Positions 33,528 through 47,577 of a DNA stretch of 64,000 nt are shown here, one piece after another. The notes beneath the pieces were generated by a model. It saw only the letters and a program-made list of their open reading frames with translations. It was not told where the DNA came from and searched no databases. The position numbers and the translations under genes were made by a program. Source of the stretch: Corynebacterium lubricantis DSM 45231. GTDB lineage: Bacteria; Actinomycetota; Actinomycetes; Mycobacteriales; Mycobacteriaceae. The stretch is from the NCBI RefSeq assembly GCF_000379425.1, contig NZ_KB902183.1, positions 130 to 64,129 of the forward strand, given 5' to 3'. Numbering within the stretch: position 1 is the first letter of the stretch; each line of letters opens with the position of its first letter.

Positions 33528-33544
33528 GGTAACGTGCAGGTAAC
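33528..33544 (+). promoter_or_regulatory. GGTAAC direct repeat upstream of the mycolyltransferase gene
   Basis: GGTAAC-GTGCA-GGTAAC: two identical hexamers with a 5-bp spacer (11-bp period), located 56-72 bp before the cmt2 start. The layout fits an OmpR-class response-regulator site; MtrA, which controls envelope genes in this order, is a reasonable candidate but is not proven. Confidence 0.4.
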
Positions 33545-33599
33545 AATCGGCGATATTTCAACGAAAGCCAAAGAATTCCGAAGCATTTCGAGGAGAAAC

Positions 33600-38301: not shown

Positions 38302-38401
38302 TCTTTGCTTACTGCTGTAACATTTCTGTTACTTAGTTTGGATAATGTAAGAAGTATTGTTTTCTGTAAAAAAGAAGTCGTTAATTACGAAAAGGAACCA
38401 C

Positions 38402-40237
38402 ATGGATCTTTCCAAGCTCATTGCCAATTTCTTCGATGAGAACGGCAACATCAAACTTGCCCCACAGCTCACCCTGGCCGGCATGGCAGAAATGATGTAC
38501 ATGGGTGACCTGCAGCTCGGCGGTGGCGAGCGTCATTGCCTGCGTTTCTGGGATTACTCGGAGAACCGTGACGGTACTCCGGTGGACTTCAACCGTACGG
38601 AGATCAATACCCGCATTAAGGCAGTTGCGGCTCGCCTGCAGCAGGTAGGCAAGATGGGCGATCGTGTAGCTATCTTGGCAGGCAACTCCCCTGAGTACAT
38701 CTTCGCTTTCGTTGGCGCACTGTACGCGGGCCAGGTGCCGGTGCCACTGTACGATCCGGAAGAACCAGGCCACGGCGATCACTTAAAGTCGGTGTTGGCA
38801 GATGCAACCGTGAAGACTGTTTTGACGAACACGACCTCTGCGGGCACCGTGCGCGAATACTTCTCGGAACTGCCATCGCGTGAGCGTCCCCGCGTCGTCG
38901 CGGTGGACTCCCTGCCAGACACACTGGCACAGTCCTACGTCAATCCTTCGGCTACGCCAGAAGGCCAGATGGCTGCGATGATGCAGACCAGCATGCCGAT
39001 TGATTCTTCCGCATTCTTGCAGTACACCTCGGGTTCCACCCGCAACCCAGCGGGTGTGGAGCTGACCAACCGCTCCATCTTGACCAACGTGCTGCAGATC
39101 TACACCGGCGCTCAGCTGAAAATGCCATTGCGCCTGTCCACCTGGCTGCCACTGCACCACGACATGGGCATCATCTTGACCCTGTTCGTCGTGATCCTAG
39201 GCCTTGAGTTTGAACTGATGGCTCCGCGCGACTTCGTGCAGCAGCCAAAGCGCTGGATTGACCAGCTGAACAAGCGCGAGGACGACGACGAGAAGAACAT
39301 CTACGCCGTGGTACCAAACTTCGCCCTCGAGCTGGCGTCTCGTTACGGCAAGCCGGCCGACGGCGAAACCCTGGACCTCTCCCGCGTGGACGGCATCATC
39401 ATCGGTTCCGAGCCAGTTATGGAATCGGCAGTCGAGTCCTTTGCCGCCGTCTTCGAGCCTTATGGCCTTGACCGCAAGGTCCTGCGTCCTTCCTACGGCC
39501 TGGCCGAGGCATCGCTGCTCCTTTCCACCCCGCAAACCGAAGAGCGCCCAGTCTTCGCCAAGTTCGACCGCGAACAGTTGGCAGCAGGTAAGGCAGTCAA
39601 GTCCGAGGACGGCGTTTCCTTCGCCTCCAACGGCCAACCTGTGTCCAACCTCTTCTTCACCATCGTTGACCCAGAGACCAAGGCGGAGCTCGCCGACGGC
39701 GAGATCGGTGAGCTGTGGGCACACGGTGAGAACATGGCTGTGGGCTACCTTGGTCGCGAGGAAGAATCGAAGGAGACCTTCGAGAACAGCATCGGCGAGC
39801 TGCTGAGCGAGACCCGTGTTCCTGATGCCCCTACCGATGGCTGGTTGGCCACCGGTGACTTGGGCACCATCCTCGACGGTCAGCTCTACATCACCGGTCG
39901 TCTCAAGGATCTCGTGGTCATCGCTGGCCGCAACCACTACCCGCAGGACATCGAGGCCACTGTCACCGAGGCTTCCGAGCACGTCCGCCCAGACTCCGTG
40001 GCAGCGTTCGCTGTCGCCGGTGACGATGTGGAGAAGCTGGTTCTGTTCGTTGAGCGTGCCGACGATGTCAGCGCCGACGGCGACGCAGCAGCCGATGAAG
40101 AAATTCGCGCTGCCGTGACCAAGGTGCATGGCATTTCCCCCGATGTAGTGCGCTTCTGCGCCCCTGGCGAGATTGCTCGCTCTTCTTCCGGCAAGATCGC
40201 GCGTCGCGTCAACCAGAAAAACTACTTGGCCGAGTAA
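38402..40237 (+). CDS. fadD32: long-chain fatty-acyl-AMP ligase FadD32
   Basis: Acyl-AMP ligase (611 aa) that activates the meromycolate-type fatty acid and hands it to the N-terminal carrier domain of Pks13. The ATP-binding P-loop is YTSGSTRNPAGVELT; STWLPLHHDMGI, PSYGLAEASLLLS, DGWLATGDLG and TGRLKDLVVIAGRNHYPQDIE are the other adenylation-family blocks. The family-specific insertion that favours acyl-AMP over CoA release is expected after the SSH region. ATG 38402 follows AAAAGGAACC; an in-frame upstream start at 38357 lacks a site. The stop lies inside an 11-bp tandem duplication. Confidence 0.95.
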   Translation: MDLSKLIANFFDENGNIKLAPQLTLAGMAEMMYMGDLQLGGGERHCLRFWDYSENRDGTPVDFNRTEINTRIKAVAARLQQVGKMGDRVAILAGNSPEYIFAFVGALYAGQVPVPLYDPEEPGHGDHLKSVLADATVKTVLTNTTSAGTVREYFSELPSRERPRVVAVDSLPDTLAQSYVNPSATPEGQMAAMMQTSMPIDSSAFLQYTSGSTRNPAGVELTNRSILTNVLQIYTGAQLKMPLRLSTWLPLHHDMGIILTLFVVILGLEFELMAPRDFVQQPKRWIDQLNKREDDDEKNIYAVVPNFALELASRYGKPADGETLDLSRVDGIIIGSEPVMESAVESFAAVFEPYGLDRKVLRPSYGLAEASLLLSTPQTEERPVFAKFDREQLAAGKAVKSEDGVSFASNGQPVSNLFFTIVDPETKAELADGEIGELWAHGENMAVGYLGREEESKETFENSIGELLSETRVPDAPTDGWLATGDLGTILDGQLYITGRLKDLVVIAGRNHYPQDIEATVTEASEHVRPDSVAAFAVAGDDVEKLVLFVERADDVSADGDAAADEEIRAAVTKVHGISPDVVRFCAPGEIARSSSGKIARRVNQKNYLAE

Positions 40238-40484: not shown

Positions 40485-43400
40485 ATGACTGAAAGCGCAA
40501 GCACTCACAATATGACTGAGGAAGAACTTTCCCAGTGGATGTTGAACTGGGTGTCACAGGCAACTGAAGTGCCCCTAGAAGAGCTTGATACAGATAAGCC
40601 TTTAGAATCTTTCGGCCTTGCCTCGCGCGATGCAGTAGTCCTGTCTGGCGAGCTAGAGAACCTGCTCGGCCGCCAGCTGGACCCGACAATTGCGTATGAG
40701 TACCCAACCATCGCCGGTTTGGCGAAGCACCTGATCCAGGGAGAAACCAAGGTTTCAGGTGAGCGCAAGCGCACCTACTCTGCGCCTCAGTCCAGCACCC
40801 CGGGCACCCATGACGTGGCCATCGTTGGCCGAGCGGGCCGTTTCCCACAGGCGGACAATGTCGATGAGTTTTGGAGCATGCTCGTCGAAGGCCGCGGTGC
40901 TACCGGTCCGCTGCCCGAAGGTCGCTGGGCGGAATACTCCAGCGACCCAGTCATGGCCGCGAAGATGAAGCAGCAAAACACCACTGGTGGTTACTTCGAC
41001 GACATTTCTACGTTCGACAACGAGTTTTTCGGGTTGTCTCCTCTGGAGGCCACCAATATGGATCCGCAGCAGCGCATCATGCTGGAGCTGACCTGGGAGG
41101 CATTGGAAGACGCACACCTGCCTGCGAACCAGCTGCGTGGCGAGTCCGTCGGCGTGTTCGTGGGTTCCTCGAATAATGACTACGGCATGTTGGTCACCTC
41201 GGATTCTTCCGAGGCGCACCCCTACGCCCTGACCGGCACCGCCAGCTCGATTATCCCGAACCGTATTTCCTATGCGTTCGACTTCCGTGGCCCCTCCATG
41301 AATGTGGACACGGCATGTTCTTCTTCGCTCGTGGCGGTGCACCACGCTGTGCGCGCGTTGCGTGACGGCGAGGCCGAAGTGGCTGTCGCCGGTGGCGTCA
41401 ACGTGCTGGCCAACCCCTTCGTGTCCACCGCCTTCGGTGAACTCGGCGTGATCAGCCCAACGGGCGCAATCCACGCCTTTTCCGACGACGCCGACGGTTT
41501 CGTCCGCGCGGACGCGGCAGGTGTGGTGATTTTGAAGCGTGTCGACGACGCACTGCGCGACGGCGACAACATTCTTGCTGTGATCAAGGGCTCGGCGACG
41601 AACTCGGACGGTCACTCCAACGGCCTGACCGCCCCGAACCCGGACGCCCAGGTGGACGTATTGCGCCGCGCGTATGCGGATGCCGGCGTGGATCCATCTG
41701 AGGTCGACTACGTTGAGGCGCACGGTACGGGCACCATCTTGGGTGACCCCATCGAGGCATCGGCATTGGGAGAGGTCCTCGGCGAGGGACGCGAACCCAA
41801 GCACCCCACGCTTCTGGGGTCGGCGAAGTCCAACATTGGACACTCGGAGTCCGCTGCAGGTGTTGTTGCCCTGATCAAGGTGCTTGAATCCTTCGAGCAC
41901 GACACCCTGCCGCCAAGCATCAACTTCTCCGAGCCGAATCACTTCATTGACTTCGACAAGGAACGCCTCGAGATTGTCGAGGATGCCCGCGAGTGGCCGA
42001 AGTACTCGGGTCGTCGCATCGCGGGTGTGTCCGGCTTCGGTTTCGGTGGCACGAACGCCCACCTGGTTGTCGCAGACTTCGATTCCGCAGAATACGACGT
42101 GGACGCCACCCACGCTCCGGCGCAGCTTTTCGACGATGAAAACCCCAACGCCGTAGCTTTGCCAGTCAGTGGCCTGCTGCCTTCTCGTCGTAAAGCGGCC
42201 GCCGCAACCTTGGCTGACTTCCTTGAGCCGCTTGCCGACGAGGAGCTTGTCCCTGTCGCGCGCTCGCTGGCGAAGCACAACCATGGTCGCTCCCGTGCGG
42301 TCGTGCAGACTAATTCCGTCGAAGACGCGGTCAAGCGCCTGCGCCAGATCGCCGACGGCAAGGTGTCGGTGGGTATCACCGCGGCGGACTCGCCAAATAC
42401 CGCCGGTCCTGTCTTTGTGTACTCGGGCTTCGGCTCGCAGCACCGCAAGATGGCGAAGAAGCTGGTACAGGTCTCGCCATTCTTCAAATCGCGTATCGAA
42501 GAGCTCGACCAGGTCGTTGACTTTGAGGCTGGTTGGTCGATGATGGAACTCATCCTCGACGACGAGCAGACCTATGATACGAACACGGCACAGGTCACCA
42601 TCACCGCGATCCAGATCGCGCTGACCGACCTGCTCGCAGAGATTGGCGTGAAGCCGGCTGCAGTCTCCGCGATGTCCATGGGTGAGATCGCTGCTGGATA
42701 CGCATCCGGCGGTATCTCTGACCGCGACGCCATGCTGATTGCGTGCCACCGCGCGCGCCTGATGGGCGAGGGCGAAGCGATGGTCACAGGCACCGATCAG
42801 GAAGGTGCGATGGCGGTCGTGGAATTCGGCCGCGACGCGCTGGCTGAGTTCGTCGACGCTCATGAAGAAGCCGCGGGCATCGAACCCGCCGTGTACGCAG
42901 GTCCAGGCATGACCACCGTGGGTGGCCCGGCTGCATCCGTGGACTTCCTCGTGGAAACCCTCGAAGCAGAGGGCAAGTTCGCCCGAAAGATGAAGGTCAA
43001 GGGCGCCGGTCATACCTCGGCGCTGGACCCGATCATGGGCGATCTCGCCTTCGAGATCTCCGGTATTGAGGCGAAGCCGCTGCAAATTCCGCTGTTCTCC
43101 TCCGTGGATCGCGGCGTGACCCACTTGCCTGGCGAGGTTGTCCACACCGACGATTACTTCCTGCGCATGACGCGCCAGCCGGTGTACTTCCAGGACGCCA
43201 CCGAGCAGGCATTCGCCGCAGGCCACACGATTTTGGTGGAGGTCTGCCCGAACCCTGTTGCCATGATGGGCATGATGAACACCGCGTTCTCTGTGGGCAA
43301 GCCTGACGCGCAGCTGCTGTTCACGCTCAAGCGCAAGGTCGATGAGGTGGAATCCCTGCGTGATCTGGCTGTCAAGATGTATGTTGCAGGCCAGGACGTG

Positions 43401-45284
43401 GATTTCACCGCGTTCTACGGCGATGGTCCCCTCCTTGCTACGCCACACACGACTTTCGAGGACACCAAGTATTGGACGGCCGCTCGCCCAAGCGCGGGTG
43501 GAACAGGCGAGCTTCCTGGCGCGCGCGTGAACCTGCCAGACGGCAAGACCGCCTTCGGCGCACAAGCCGACCAGGTCTTTAGCCCGCATCAATTGATCGA
43601 GGCGGCGGCCGAGATCGTCGCCCCAGGCTCGAAGATCATCGCTACGGAGGAGCGCGGATCGCTGCCATCCAACGGTGAGGTGACCACGCTCGTCGAATCC
43701 TCCTTGGGTGGTTTGACCATCAAGGTGTGGGCAGCTGACCAACTGGTCGCAGAAGGCTTTGCGACGACGCTTGCGCTCGACACGCCTTCCACAGTCCCAG
43801 GAGTGTCTGAATACACCCAGGTAGAGGCCTCTTCTGAGTCGAAGGCGCCATCCTTTACCGATATCGACGTCGAGCAGGTCCGCTGGGATCCCACAAGCGG
43901 AGAATCGGTGGAGGACCGTCTGCGTTCGATCGTCGGCGAATCCATGGGCTACGACGTGGATGACCTTCCGCTGGAGCTGCCCCTGATTGATCTGGGCTTG
44001 GATTCGCTCATGGGCATGCGCATCAAGAACCGTGTGGAGAACGATTTCCAGATCCCACCGCTCAACGTCCAGGTCCTGCGTGATGCTTCCGTTGCGGATG
44101 TGATCACCATGGTCGAAGATGCCGTCGCAGGTGTTGCAGCCGAGCCTGCTGAACCAGCTGAAACTGTTGAAGCCGCAGGATCGGACGCTGACTCAGACGC
44201 ACCCGTCCAGGGTGTTGGTGTTGCCCCACGCGATGCTTCCGAGCGCATGGTCTTCGGCGCCTGGGCAAAGTACACCGGCGCAGCGGCCGCAGGCGTGACC
44301 TCGGCGCTGCCTGAGATCACCGAGGAGCAGGCGTGTAATATCGCTGCGCACCTCACGGAGCGCTCCGGGATTTCCATCACCGGCACTGAAGTCAGCGACG
44401 CCGAGACGCTGGAGCCGCTGGCCAACCGCGTCCGTGAAGGCCTCGAGACCGAGGTCGAGGGCAACATCCGCGTGCTGCGCGAGCGCACCTCGGACGAGGC
44501 TCCGAGCGTGTTTATGTTCCACCCGGCAGGCGGCACCACCGTCGTGTACGAGCCGTTGACTCGTCGTCTAGCGGACAACGTGCCCGTCTACGGCGTCGAA
44601 CGCCTCGAGGGCTCGCTGGAGGACCGCGCCGCGGCCTACATCGACGACATTGTGCGTCTCTCGGCCGGCAAGCCGGTCGTGCTCGGCGGTTGGTCCTTCG
44701 GCGGCGCGCTCGCCTACGAGGTTGCGCACCAGCTCCAGGACACGGACGTCGAGGTTGCGTTCATTTCGCTGTTGGACACAACCCAACCTGCCGAGCCGAT
44801 CCCGGACACCATGGAGGAGACGAAGGCTCGCTGGCAGCGCTACGCTGACTTCGCGGCCGACACCTACGGTCTCGAGTTCGACGTGCCTTTCGAGCTGCTG
44901 GAAACCGCTGGCGAGGAAGCCCTGATGGGCATGCTGGAGCATGTCTTGGCTACAACCGATGCGTCCGCGCACGGCCTGTCCGCAGGTGTGCTCGAGCACC
45001 AGCGCGCGAGCTTCGTGGACAACCAGATTCTGGGCAAGATCGACTTCGCACGCTGGGCTGGCGTGGATGTTCCCGTCCTGCTGTTCCGCTCCGAGCGGAT
45101 GCACGACGGCGCGATTACCCTAGAACCGCGTTACGCCCACGTCGCCGAGGACGGCAACTGGGGCCAGATCGTTTCGGATTTGACCATCGTGCAGTGCCCG
45201 GGCGATCACTTGGCCATGCCGGATGAACCGGTGATCGGCATCGTCGGCAAGCATATGAATGAGTGGATTGAGAGGTACAGCTAA
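40485..45284 (+). CDS. pks13: polyketide synthase Pks13 (mycolic acid condensase)
   Basis: Type I polyketide synthase (1599 aa) that performs the Claisen condensation joining two fatty acids into a 2-alkyl-3-keto ester, the corynomycolate precursor. Domain order and active residues: N-terminal acyl carrier (Ser47 in FGLASRDA), ketosynthase (DTACSSS, Cys278; EAHGTGT; NIGHSESAAG), acyltransferase (AMSMGEIAAG, Ser731), second acyl carrier (LGLDSLMGMR, Ser1174), and thioesterase/acyl-trehalose-forming domain (GGWSFGGALAYE, Ser1404). There is no reducing domain, as expected. FadD32 loads the first carrier; the AccD3-containing carboxylase supplies the carboxyacyl-CoA for the acyltransferase. The accD3 gene starts at once after the stop. 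Confidence 0.98.
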   Translation: MTESASTHNMTEEELSQWMLNWVSQATEVPLEELDTDKPLESFGLASRDAVVLSGELENLLGRQLDPTIAYEYPTIAGLAKHLIQGETKVSGERKRTYSAPQSSTPGTHDVAIVGRAGRFPQADNVDEFWSMLVEGRGATGPLPEGRWAEYSSDPVMAAKMKQQNTTGGYFDDISTFDNEFFGLSPLEATNMDPQQRIMLELTWEALEDAHLPANQLRGESVGVFVGSSNNDYGMLVTSDSSEAHPYALTGTASSIIPNRISYAFDFRGPSMNVDTACSSSLVAVHHAVRALRDGEAEVAVAGGVNVLANPFVSTAFGELGVISPTGAIHAFSDDADGFVRADAAGVVILKRVDDALRDGDNILAVIKGSATNSDGHSNGLTAPNPDAQVDVLRRAYADAGVDPSEVDYVEAHGTGTILGDPIEASALGEVLGEGREPKHPTLLGSAKSNIGHSESAAGVVALIKVLESFEHDTLPPSINFSEPNHFIDFDKERLEIVEDAREWPKYSGRRIAGVSGFGFGGTNAHLVVADFDSAEYDVDATHAPAQLFDDENPNAVALPVSGLLPSRRKAAAATLADFLEPLADEELVPVARSLAKHNHGRSRAVVQTNSVEDAVKRLRQIADGKVSVGITAADSPNTAGPVFVYSGFGSQHRKMAKKLVQVSPFFKSRIEELDQVVDFEAGWSMMELILDDEQTYDTNTAQVTITAIQIALTDLLAEIGVKPAAVSAMSMGEIAAGYASGGISDRDAMLIACHRARLMGEGEAMVTGTDQEGAMAVVEFGRDALAEFVDAHEEAAGIEPAVYAGPGMTTVGGPAASVDFLVETLEAEGKFARKMKVKGAGHTSALDPIMGDLAFEISGIEAKPLQIPLFSSVDRGVTHLPGEVVHTDDYFLRMTRQPVYFQDATEQAFAAGHTILVEVCPNPVAMMGMMNTAFSVGKPDAQLLFTLKRKVDEVESLRDLAVKMYVAGQDVDFTAFYGDGPLLATPHTTFEDTKYWTAARPSAGGTGELPGARVNLPDGKTAFGAQADQVFSPHQLIEAAAEIVAPGSKIIATEERGSLPSNGEVTTLVESSLGGLTIKVWAADQLVAEGFATTLALDTPSTVPGVSEYTQVEASSESKAPSFTDIDVEQVRWDPTSGESVEDRLRSIVGESMGYDVDDLPLELPLIDLGLDSLMGMRIKNRVENDFQIPPLNVQVLRDASVADVITMVEDAVAGVAAEPAEPAETVEAAGSDADSDAPVQGVGVAPRDASERMVFGAWAKYTGAAAAGVTSALPEITEEQACNIAAHLTERSGISITGTEVSDAETLEPLANRVREGLETEVEGNIRVLRERTSDEAPSVFMFHPAGGTTVVYEPLTRRLADNVPVYGVERLEGSLEDRAAAYIDDIVRLSAGKPVVLGGWSFGGALAYEVAHQLQDTDVEVAFISLLDTTQPAEPIPDTMEETKARWQRYADFAADTYGLEFDVPFELLETAGEEALMGMLEHVLATTDASAHGLSAGVLEHQRASFVDNQILGKIDFARWAGVDVPVLLFRSERMHDGAITLEPRYAHVAEDGNWGQIVSDLTIVQCPGDHLAMPDEPVIGIVGKHMNEWIERYS

Positions 45285-45285
45285 G

Positions 45286-46827
45286 TTGAATACCGCTGAG
45301 AAGCTCGCTGACCTGCGAGCTCGCCTGGAAACGGCGAAGGACCCGGGCTCCGAGCGCTCCCGCAAGAGGCGCGACGACGCCGGGCAGACCACCCCGCGCG
45401 AGCGCATCAACGCATTGCTTGACGACGATTCCTTTGTGGAAATCGGCGCCCTGGGCAAAACCCCCGGCGACAAAGACGCCGTGTATTCCGATGGTGTGGT
45501 GACCGGTTATGGTCGTATCGACGGCCGTCCCGTGGTGGTCTACGCGCACGACAAGACCGTGTACGGCGGTTCCGTTGGCGTGACCTTTGGCAAGAAGGTC
45601 GTCGAGGTCATGGAGCTGGGCATTAAGGTCGGTTGCCCGATCATTGGTATCCAGGATTCCGGTGGTGCGCGTATTCAGGACGCCGTGACTTCGCTGGCGA
45701 TGTACTCCGAGATTGCGCGTCGTCAGCTGCCGCAGTCCGGTCGCGCGCCTCAGATCTCCATCATGTTGGGTAAGTCCGCCGGTGGCGCTGTGTATGCGCC
45801 GGTGACCACCGACTTCGTGGTTGCCGTGGAAGACCAGTCGGAAATGTATGTCACCGGCCCTGCCGTGATCCGCGAGGTCACCGGCGAGGACGTCACCTCC
45901 GAAGAGCTCGGCGGCGCCCGCCAGCAGGAGCTCAACGGCAACGTCCAGGCCGTGGTCGGCTCCGAGGACGAGGCCTTTGAGTTCGTGCGTGACCTGCTGG
46001 GCTACCTGCCTACCTCGACGTTTGATGAGGGCCCAGAAGTGTGGGCGCCTAGCGATGAAGACTTAGACGATGCGGCTCTCGACGAGTTCATGCCCGACGA
46101 TACGAACGCCGGCTACGACATGATGGACCTGCTGGTCCAACTCGGCGACGACGAGGATCTTGTCGAGATCCAGGAAAACTACGCGCCCAACCTGATCTGT
46201 GCGTTCGGCCGGATCGACGGGAAGTCCGTCGGCTTCGTAGCGAATAACCCGATGCATTTCGCCGGCTGTATCGACGCGGATGCCGCCGACAAGGGTGCAC
46301 GTTTCATTCGCACCTGCGACGCGTACAACATCCCGATTGTTTTCGTCGTGGATACGCCGGGCTACCTGCCAGGTGTTGATCAAGAAAAAGTCGGTTTGAT
46401 CCACCGCGGTGCGAAACTCGCTTTCGCGCTCGTGGAGGCCACCGTGCCGAAGGTGACGCTTATCGTGCGTAAGGCATACGGTGGCGCCTATGCGGTGATG
46501 GGTTCGAAGAACCTGACCGGAGACATCAACCTGGCGTGGCCGACCGGCCAGATTGCCGTGATGGGCTCCGCGGCCGCCGTTGTGATGATCCAGGGCAAGC
46601 AGCTGGCCCAGATCGAGGATCCGGATCAGCGAGCGTATATGAAGAAGGTGTTCATGGATTTCTACGAAGAAAACATGACAAGCCCGTACGTCGCCGCCGA
46701 GCGGGGGTATATCGATGCGATGATCGAACCCTCGCAGACGCGAATTGCCCTGCGTAAGGCGTTGCGGCAGTTGGAGACGAAGGACGAGAAGGACCTTCCG
46801 AAGAAGCACACCATCTCCCCGCTGTAA
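45286..46827 (+). CDS. accD3: acyl-CoA carboxylase carboxyltransferase subunit AccD3
   Basis: Beta subunit (513 aa from TTG 45286) of the acyl-CoA carboxylase that makes 2-carboxyacyl-CoA for Pks13. The crotonase-fold carboxyltransferase halves are both complete; conserved blocks include QDSGGARIQDAV, LGKSAGGAVYAP, FVVDTPGYLPG and RKAYGGAYAVMG. An ATG at 45259 (overlapping pks13 by 26 bp) gives a 522-aa form; I favour TTG because GAGAGG precedes it and the ATG has no site. It works with a shared biotinylated AccBC alpha subunit encoded elsewhere. Confidence 0.95.
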   Translation: MNTAEKLADLRARLETAKDPGSERSRKRRDDAGQTTPRERINALLDDDSFVEIGALGKTPGDKDAVYSDGVVTGYGRIDGRPVVVYAHDKTVYGGSVGVTFGKKVVEVMELGIKVGCPIIGIQDSGGARIQDAVTSLAMYSEIARRQLPQSGRAPQISIMLGKSAGGAVYAPVTTDFVVAVEDQSEMYVTGPAVIREVTGEDVTSEELGGARQQELNGNVQAVVGSEDEAFEFVRDLLGYLPTSTFDEGPEVWAPSDEDLDDAALDEFMPDDTNAGYDMMDLLVQLGDDEDLVEIQENYAPNLICAFGRIDGKSVGFVANNPMHFAGCIDADAADKGARFIRTCDAYNIPIVFVVDTPGYLPGVDQEKVGLIHRGAKLAFALVEATVPKVTLIVRKAYGGAYAVMGSKNLTGDINLAWPTGQIAVMGSAAAVVMIQGKQLAQIEDPDQRAYMKKVFMDFYEENMTSPYVAAERGYIDAMIEPSQTRIALRKALRQLETKDEKDLPKKHTISPL

Positions 46828-46890
46828 CAACTGTAAGATGGCCACCGATAATAATTTTGACATTAATCGACTTGTAAGGAGCATGCTTTT

Positions 46891-46995
46891 ATGCTGAGCA
46901 GCATCATGGACATCGTTGTTGAGATCGCAAACTACCTCGTCTGGCTCGGGGTCTCCCTGGGTGCCTCCAACCCACTGGAGTACATGGGCTCCTAA
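46891..46995 (+). CDS. 34-residue amphipathic small protein downstream of accD3
   Basis: A 34-aa protein starting MLSSIMDIVVEIANYLVW and ending NPLEYMGS. AAGGAG (46876-46881) stands 9 bases before ATG, and an AT-rich GATAATAATT element at about 46848 could be its own -10 box. The chain is a hydrophobic/amphipathic helix with acidic residues at i, i+4 (Asp7, Glu11), then LGVSLGAS and a polar tail; no cysteine or cleavable signal. This is the size and style of the signal-less, O-mycoloylated PorA/PorH/ProtX proteins of Corynebacterium outer membranes, but I see no clear sequence identity with them. Location in the mycolate locus makes a cell-envelope role plausible. An untranslated start alternative at 46884 is too close to the ribosome site. 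Confidence 0.7.
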   Translation: MLSSIMDIVVEIANYLVWLGVSLGASNPLEYMGS

Positions 46996-47016
46996 GTGGG
47001 CACTAGAATTTTCTCG

Positions 47017-47577
47017 CTAGACTAGCGGCACGAAACGGAACTGCCCGTGGGTAGACACCGTCGCGTGTCCGTAGACGTCTAGGCACAAGCGATGCATGGT
47101 CCCGGCGACGGGAATGACCATGGTTCCTCCCGGTGCGAGCTGTTTGACCAGCTCCGCCGGGATTTCTTTTGCCTCGGCCGAGACCAAAATACGATCGAAG
47201 GGGCTTTCCTCAGCAAGCCCGAGCTTTCTCCTGTGCGCCTGACGGATCTCGGCAGATTTCGCCCCGGATGCCTTGAGGTTGTTTTGCCCCATGCGCACCA
47301 AGTCGGGGACGAGCTCGACTCCCCACACATAGCCCTTCTCGCCGACCAATTCGGACAGCAGGGCCGTGGTCCAACCAGAGCCAGAGCCGACATCGAGGAC
47401 CTTATTTCCTGGGCGAGGGCCCAGGAGCATCAACATGATTTCAACCGTCGTGGGTTGGGAGTTGGTTTGGTCGTGTCCGATTGCGAGCGGGGCATCGATG
47501 TGTGCGTGCTCTGCGTATTCGGGAGGGAGGAAATCTGCCCGCGGTACGGCGAGCATGGCTTGTTCGATGCGCTCCAT
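47017..47577 (-). CDS. pcm: protein-L-isoaspartate O-methyltransferase family protein
   Basis: SAM-dependent methyltransferase (186 aa) of the PCMT family, which methylates isoaspartyl residues in damaged proteins. Recognisable pieces are VPRADFLPPEYAEHAH, the IGHDQTNSQPTTV substrate loop, the SAM-binding KVLDVGSGSGWTTALL, and FDRILVSAEAKEIP. It is a little shorter than typical (about 210). Convergent with the 34-aa gene, 21 bp apart. Whether it repairs proteins or acts on another substrate cannot be told from sequence. Confidence 0.82.
   Translation of the reverse strand: MERIEQAMLAVPRADFLPPEYAEHAHIDAPLAIGHDQTNSQPTTVEIMLMLLGPRPGNKVLDVGSGSGWTTALLSELVGEKGYVWGVELVPDLVRMGQNNLKASGAKSAEIRQAHRRKLGLAEESPFDRILVSAEAKEIPAELVKQLAPGGTMVIPVAGTMHRLCLDVYGHATVSTHGQFRFVPLV

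Follow-up and report, generated by a model that had tools for sequence, protein, structure and literature searches.

Few small proteins of the mycomembrane have been described, and most of them come from Corynebacterium glutamicum (PMC12632848). The genes for PorA and PorH sit between groEL2 and ppk2 (PMC3792995, PMC5944148), and the pore that the two proteins build is predicted to be roughly 34 angstrom (PMC12632848). A third small protein, ProtX, is O-mycoloylated at its penultimate residue, Ser37, and its function is given as unknown (PMC5310785). Cgl2215, another small envelope-related protein, promotes the activity of the mycoloyltransferase MytA in C. glutamicum (PMC10441969). PorH and ProtX have been linked to the envelope-stress sigma factor sigma-D. 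In C. glutamicum, sigma-D raises fadD2, pks, cmt1-3 and porH (PMC5508688, PMC11175481), the last of these upon overexpression of sigD (PMC5508688), and ProtX has been named a member of the regulon (PMC11175481). The promoter consensus is GTAAC(A/G), a spacer of N17-18 and GAT (PMC6338062, PMC11588781), and the fadD2 promoter was found to depend on sigma-D (PMC6338062). In the same study, cmt1, cmt2 and rsdA were the only genes whose sigma-D promoters were found to be shared by different species of Corynebacterium.

Our results indicate that a frame of 34 codons lying directly after accD3 in Corynebacterium lubricantis DSM 45231 is almost certainly a real gene, judged by comparison of sequences. 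It was studied in a stretch of 64,000 nucleotides (the window; contig NZ_KB902183.1, positions 130 to 64,129), whose relevant features are collected in Table 1. The frame translates as MLSSIMDIVVEIANYLVWLGVSLGASNPLEYMGS, and its start lies 63 nt behind the accD3 stop. It is the final plus-strand gene of the fadD-pks13-accD3 run; the PCMT-type gene that follows is convergent and ends at 47017. On balance we think that its product belongs to a new family of mycomembrane proteins in Corynebacterium, 26-39 residues long, leaderless and part of the sigma-D envelope-stress regulon; it would then probably be an overlooked tiny protein of the unusual outer membrane of this bacterium. This reading follows from a conserved gene combined with a promoter that resembles those induced by damage to the outer envelope. 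Among PMC titles and abstract openings searched with a limited set of terms, no paper was found that tells of a small gene behind accD3.

Table 1. Features of the window around the small gene and its candidate promoter elements (positions count from the first letter of the window).
Feature	Position	Strand	Remarks
Only other strict sigma-D type site in the window	33529..33554	+	Shortly precedes an esterase gene of mycoloyltransferase type (ATG 33600; PF00756, E 1e-38)
GTAAC-N19-GAT before the fadD2-type gene	38317..38343	+	Sequence read; outside all statistics
fadD2-type acyl-AMP ligase, first of the fadD-pks13-accD3 run	38402..40237	+	PF00501, E 1.3e-49; the name fadD2 is given from position
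pks13, mycolate condensing polyketide synthase	40485..45284	+	Two PP-binding, KS, AT and TE domains
accD3, carboxyltransferase, mycolate synthesis	45259..46827	+	Directly upstream of the small gene; PF01039, E 5e-149
Candidate sigma-D type -35 element, GTAACA	46824..46829	+	Overlaps the accD3 stop TAA, 46825-46827
Candidate -10 element, CGAT	46846..46849	+	41 nt to the small-gene ATG
Shine-Dalgarno sequence, AAGGAG	46876..46881	+	9 nt before the small-gene ATG
Small protein gene, 34 aa (predicted)	46891..46995	+	ATG to TAA; conserved family; pN/pS 0.31
PCMT-type methyltransferase, convergent	47017..47577	-	PF01135, E 8.7e-46

An earlier note on this DNA had seen here a clean 34-codon frame, preceded by AAGGAG near its ATG, and had taken it for an unrecognised gene. 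The ribosome-binding sequence and its spacing are as described. Numerous mechanical frames of 25-60 codons surround 46891-46995, so that an open frame of this size is no evidence by itself and conservation must decide. In a first search with the single sequence, matches, mostly weak, appeared in 48 of the 201 genomes of the genus at E <= 10, and an accD3 homologue (82-100 % identical) adjoined the match in 29 of 30 fetched loci. An iterated profile run over 191 flanks then placed the family behind accD3 in 103 of the 164 distinct flanks from Corynebacterium and in none of the 27 from other genera, with a wide gap between the lowest accepted score (31.0 bits) and the highest rejected one (4.4). 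These flanks (98 fetched 3' regions, 80 named loci, the other-genus loci and loci fetched earlier) were made distinct on their first 120 nt only, so that sister strains may count twice. Among the 164, of which 78 are named loci, are one metagenome bin titled Mycobacteriaceae and another titled Actinomycetales. The roughly 37 genomes whose accD3 matches were weakest fall outside the flank set and inside the profile search of 201 genomes discussed below. Where enough DNA was present to tell, pks13 lay upstream in 92 of 93 Corynebacterium flanks and 24 of 27 flanks from other genera.

The homologues are 26-39 residues long with a single exception of 69 aa, a copy that lacks the usual stop codon and whose tail reads on, owing either to a lost stop or to a sequencing error. 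Among 97 distinct sequences, D7 and an acid at position 11 (D or E) are invariant (97/97 each), and S3 (94/97), S/T4 (88/97) and N/G/S14 (93/97) are nearly so; the tail is variable. Over 34 non-overlapping pairs of equal length, chosen greedily and thus incompletely independent, pN/pS was 0.31 (bootstrap 0.25-0.39), with 123, 61 and 203 substitutions at codon positions 1, 2 and 3. A Shine-Dalgarno-like sequence, defined by a broad pattern, precedes 108 of 111 copies. Conservation across relatives thus marks the frame as more than chance. The checks proposed in the earlier note, conservation downstream of accD3 and selection on the alignment, both gave a positive answer, the frame being conserved in 103 distinct flanks and under purifying selection, and the contrary outcome named there, a frame unconserved or broken, did not appear. 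It is hardly credible that the frame is a chance one lying across a terminator of accD3 or some other conserved regulatory element at its 3' end. The DNA around it is itself fairly alike in close pairs, with nucleotide identities of 0.70 in the spacers and 0.76 in the 60 nt that follow the stop codon, compared with 0.88 for the frame itself; however, the low pN/pS, the excess of third-position changes, the residues kept in diverged copies and the Shine-Dalgarno-like sequences all argue for a protein, and no terminator-like site was found in 46600-47200.

The helix followed by a tail, which the earlier note had read from the translation, is also what the AlphaFold2 model predicts: a helix over residues 2-24, with a mean pLDDT of 93 for residues 1-20, which then falls to 78 and 65 in a looser tail. 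The helical moment of residues 3-22 is 0.373, against 0.166 (sd 0.009) in shuffled sequences, and positions 3, 4, 7, 11, 14, 18, 21 and 22 lie within one 100-degree sector of the helix. Position 18 is usually Trp or Met and the other positions of the sector are mostly polar, so that a conserved stripe of Ser, Asp, Asp (or Glu) and Asn runs along one face of the predicted helix. In the 96 sequences used for composition, from which the 69-aa copy was left out, Lys and Arg are absent from residues 1-20 and Cys from the whole chain, without exception, and the net charge is 0 to -4; it is from the missing Lys and Arg that the peptides are judged leaderless. The best 19-residue Kyte-Doolittle window has a mean of 1.52. 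Serines that are candidates for O-mycoloylation are present, as S[ST] within the first seven residues in 87 of the 96 and as SS within the last six residues in 41, the window copy not being among the latter. Pfam and NCBIfam contain no curated family that matches, only stray hits at E 0.03-1, and solved structures gave no match at E <= 10. One match in a plasmid collection, at E 7, was put down to chance.

The earlier note had compared the peptide with PorA, PorH and ProtX, and the comparison is a fitting one: the family shares their physical type, that of a short, acidic, amphipathic helix. PorA and PorH, as represented by the copies of this genome, are small, leaderless, acidic amphipathic helices like the family, which differs from them in being shorter. 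By simple arithmetic, 23-25 residues that are helical throughout would span about 34-37 angstrom, close to the size predicted for the PorA-PorH pore. Homology to the PorH and PorA of this genome was not detectable (hhalign 1.4 % and 0.2 %; HMM bits 0.2 and -3.0), in a comparison that used single PorH and PorA sequences and leaves room for a remote relationship. Nor does the position agree, the small gene lying after accD3 and not in the groEL2-ppk2 stretch. There the window genome has porH- and porA-like genes of its own, coding for 64 aa and 48 aa, so the small gene is not a missing main porin. ProtX (cg2875), with its 38 aa, is also similar in kind: it lacks a signal sequence and any Lys or Arg, contains six serines and has an N-terminal S-x-[FL]-D-[IL]. 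However, the acids of ProtX stand at 6 and 13 and those of the family at 7 and 11, and cg2875 is in a different place from accD3, which in C. glutamicum is cg3177 (PMC7775120). Profile comparison of the family with C. glutamicum ProtX gave a weak signal (hhalign P 0.004, probability 8 %), and 130 of 2000 shuffled ProtX sequences scored as well. Cgl2215, whose number places its gene elsewhere, is a precedent only, likened by description.

With regard to O-mycoloylation, PorH and ProtX carry SS at their mycoloylated ends, and it counts against the mycomembrane reading that only 41 of the 96 family members have such a pair near the C-terminus. Small residues and serines are slightly enriched around mapped mycoloylation sites (PMC11066868), and serine-serine signatures in a mycoloylation motif are mentioned in PMC11175481; PMC5310785 reports no consensus among three sites. 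These reports allow the idea that the peptide is O-mycoloylated, and do not prove it. The same size, leaderless start and amphipathic helix would also suit a secreted surfactant or antimicrobial peptide acting in the manner of phenol-soluble modulins. We regard this as quite improbable, given the neutral to negative charge of all 96 sequences, the lack of Lys and Arg in residues 1-20 and a single copy fixed to the mycolate locus. Moreover, none of 46 members matched a modulin or delta-lysin model of Pfam, which we take to contain both, at E <= 1.

The promoter-like, AT-rich stretch that the earlier note had assigned to the gene is real, and is better described as of sigma-D type: the candidate site, GTAAC-N18-GAT at 46824-46849, matches the published consensus. 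The same DNA, read as a sigma-70-like promoter, scores 9/12. Judged by this predicted promoter, the small gene is very probably under sigma-D type regulation. The element was first noticed in stand-alone copies of the gene and was then tested over all 111 upstream regions, 103 adjacent to accD3 and 8 stand-alone. GTAAC-N15-19-CGAT was found upstream of 60 of the 111, against a mean of 0.20 in dinucleotide shuffles; the reverse strand gave 1 site and an internal stretch of accD3 0/72. Only the spacers of 16, 17 and 18 are enriched (3, 23 and 34 copies), all remaining spacers from 5 to 40 totalling 7, and in every one of the 60 sites GTAAC is followed by a purine, neither feature having been built into the search pattern. 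A sigma-A type -10 box (TANANT), on the other hand, is hardly enriched (29 against 21 in shuffled sequences, sd 4.3).

The presence of the site depends on the room available for it. All the strict sites belong to the 90 copies that stand alone or have a gap of at least 45 nt, and none to the 21 with a shorter gap; the latter, 12-34 nt behind accD3, look operonic and would be transcribed as part of the accD3 operon, in which fadD2 has the sigma-D dependent promoter known from C. glutamicum (PMC6338062). If one mismatch is tolerated, a site is present in 76 of the 90 copies with room, compared with 2.2 in mononucleotide shuffles, and in 14 none was found within that limit. Close to accD3, the strict site occurs in 55 of 103 flanks with the small gene, in none of the 27 from other genera and in none of the 61 Corynebacterium flanks without an adjacent copy. 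Five of the eight stand-alone copies have a strict site and two more a site with one mismatch. In the window as a whole, GTAACR-N15-17-CGAT occurs twice, with 0.43 expected by shuffling, and for the esterase gene behind the second site the ATG start is the likelier one, because the longer frame from a GTG at 33534 would overlap the promoter. The window genome has 20 sigma-D type sites and 12 matches to a reversed control pattern, so chance may account for about half of the 20. Among the sites followed by a plausible gene are those before the mycoloyltransferase-type gene, an rsdA-like gene (PF16751, E 0.0027, under its cut-off), accBC and a frame of 60 aa. The site near accBC (contig C22, 8610-8635) is 127 nt before the biotin carboxylase gene and may be a chance occurrence. 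The small gene would add a further conserved sigma-D promoter to those of cmt1, cmt2 and rsdA.

The profile search of the 201 genomes detected the family in 104, with one copy each. At E <= 0.1 there had been 107, and three whose sole matches were chance hits of 15-18 bits inside long frames (G023, G033, G109) were dropped, as were second matches of the same kind in four others (G021, G051, G059, G171). An accD3 gene is present in 187 of the 201 and pks13 in 188; 13 genomes lack both, and one other is without accD3, its pks13-like match being weaker (2.7e-46). Of the 187 genomes with accD3, 104 have the small gene, against 0 of the 14 sampled without it; the comparison is confounded by phylogeny, and the 14 include two assemblies that are incomplete (77 % and 53 %). 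About 44 % of the sampled accD3-bearing genomes are without the family. When the same profile was run against 151 genomes from 31 genera of the taxonomic family, strong matches were confined to Corynebacterium, and three weak ones in other genera (15-18 bits), lying inside frames of 110-330 aa, were rejected. On the AccD3 tree, in which three rows marked as lacking the gene are duplicates that do carry it, the presence of the family needs nine changes. The losses are real: in the closest sampled relative by AccD3 the small gene is absent both after accD3 and elsewhere in the genome, and the accD3 flank of C. silvaticum contains no copy. In that closest relative accD3 is followed by what we take, by eye, to be a hairpin and by a presumably macrodomain-like gene.

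In nine genomes the small gene has the same orientation as accD3 but lies about 1.3-19 kb further downstream. In the eight of these that were read the Shine-Dalgarno sequence is kept, and the intervening DNA differs among several. The persistence of these copies indicates that selection keeps the gene itself and not merely the end of accD3. In four genomes accD3 and the small gene are separated by 14-19 kb with clusters of long frames, a similar early gene being common to all four.

Many short bacterial stress membrane proteins tune envelope proteins from the plasma membrane, and a single helix in or on that membrane might in the same way tune Pks13/AccD3, the CmpL transporter or the proteases of the sigma-D pathway. 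The location beside mycolate synthesis genes, the apparent cotranscription of 21 of the 111 copies with accD3 and the hydrophobicity of the helix speak for such an inner-membrane microprotein. However, a stretch of twenty residues free of Lys and Arg in 96 of 96 sequences would be unusual for a protein oriented by the positive-inside rule, one face of the helix bears two invariant acids, and the nine genomes with a distant copy mean that tight coupling to AccD3 is not needed. We consider an inner-membrane regulator the less likely course, though a live rival. The same evidence bears on the two possibilities left by the earlier note, a mycomembrane peptide or a partner of Pks13/AccD3. The former gains support from the sigma-D type promoter, the absence of the gene from the 14 genomes without accD3 and the lack of Lys and Arg in residues 1-20; the latter loses ground through the nine genomes in which 1.3-19 kb separate the gene from accD3.

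In C. glutamicum, a different peptide occupies the position behind accD3. The genome taken for this species (G269), on the grounds of an exact match to a primer from PMC5310785 and of the ProtX serine positions, has a 27-residue frame, MATIFAVLSGIDFLSVSLSYLQGFLSY, 57 nt after accD3 and with its own Shine-Dalgarno sequence. A GTAAC-N17-GAT overlaps the accD3 stop, and the DNA behind the peptide resembles, by eye, a strong terminator. Such peptides of 25-27 aa, which we call class II, were found directly after accD3, each with its own Shine-Dalgarno sequence, in this genome and six relatives, C. gallinarum among the carriers; their consensus is MTIIAILLGIDIFSTxLPYIQGFLSY. They share with the family the place after accD3 and the Shine-Dalgarno sequence and differ from it in sequence, and profile comparison did not join the two (4 %). 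Class II peptides may be far-diverged relatives or replacements. The sigma-D consensus is present at the accD3 stop in two of the seven class II loci read (G269 and L109), and a looser sigma-D pattern was found once among the 61 flanks that have no adjacent copy, with 0.56 expected, which is chance level.

It has been reported for C. glutamicum that surface exposure of PorH needs sigma-D beyond its effect on Cmt1 or on mature PorH levels, and further members of the regulon have been predicted to act in the assembly of the mycomembrane proteins known as MOMPs (PMC11175481). The peptide might accordingly be induced by sigma-D to help in escorting or inserting proteins of the PorA/PorH type without being a pore itself, an idea that agrees with its sigma-D type promoter and with the absence of a matching curated Pfam or NCBIfam family. 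Nevertheless, nothing links the family directly to PorA/PorH, and in C. glutamicum, the species of that observation, this place is taken by the class II peptide alone. We see an assembly factor as a live rival too, and an improbable one.

We return to a peptide of the mycomembrane itself, whose location there, O-mycoloylation and function we infer from the features set out above. When mycolate or arabinogalactan assembly is disturbed, sigma-D would raise both the mycolate synthesis genes and the peptide. Export of the peptide may follow the route that PorA, PorH and ProtX take, and it would probably be O-mycoloylated on a serine, with Ser3/Ser4 or the tail as candidates. Its polar stripe could pack it into a homo-oligomer, or against other small mycomembrane proteins, and the oligomer could form a pore or a scaffold that helps to restore the mycomembrane. 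A second small mycomembrane protein may be encoded by the leaderless 60-aa frame of the window genome mentioned above, which begins MSSINDLFISIGG (contig C24, 179598-179777). A strict sigma-D type site lies 38 nt before its start, and a homologue in another genome, 40 % identical, has a sigma-D type site at the same place; two of 101 genomes carry the frame.

Taken together, these results describe a new conserved family after accD3 with its own predicted sigma-D type promoter. Tentatively, the family and class II could be the first signs of a hidden set of mycomembrane micro-proteins under sigma-D control, either structural peptides or MOMP assembly factors. If so, a scan for a sigma-D promoter followed by a leaderless frame of < 65 codons would find the rest, the 60-aa frame being the second candidate. 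With a conserved Ser/Asp/Asp/Asn stripe, point-mutation tests are simple, and thanks to the counterpart of C. glutamicum at the same place the idea is easily testable in a standard laboratory strain. The family is also a concrete candidate for the sigma-D regulon members whose part in mycomembrane protein assembly was predicted (PMC11175481). Present in more than half of the sampled accD3-bearing Corynebacterium genomes (104/187), it may offer a new handle on the export and assembly of small mycomembrane proteins.
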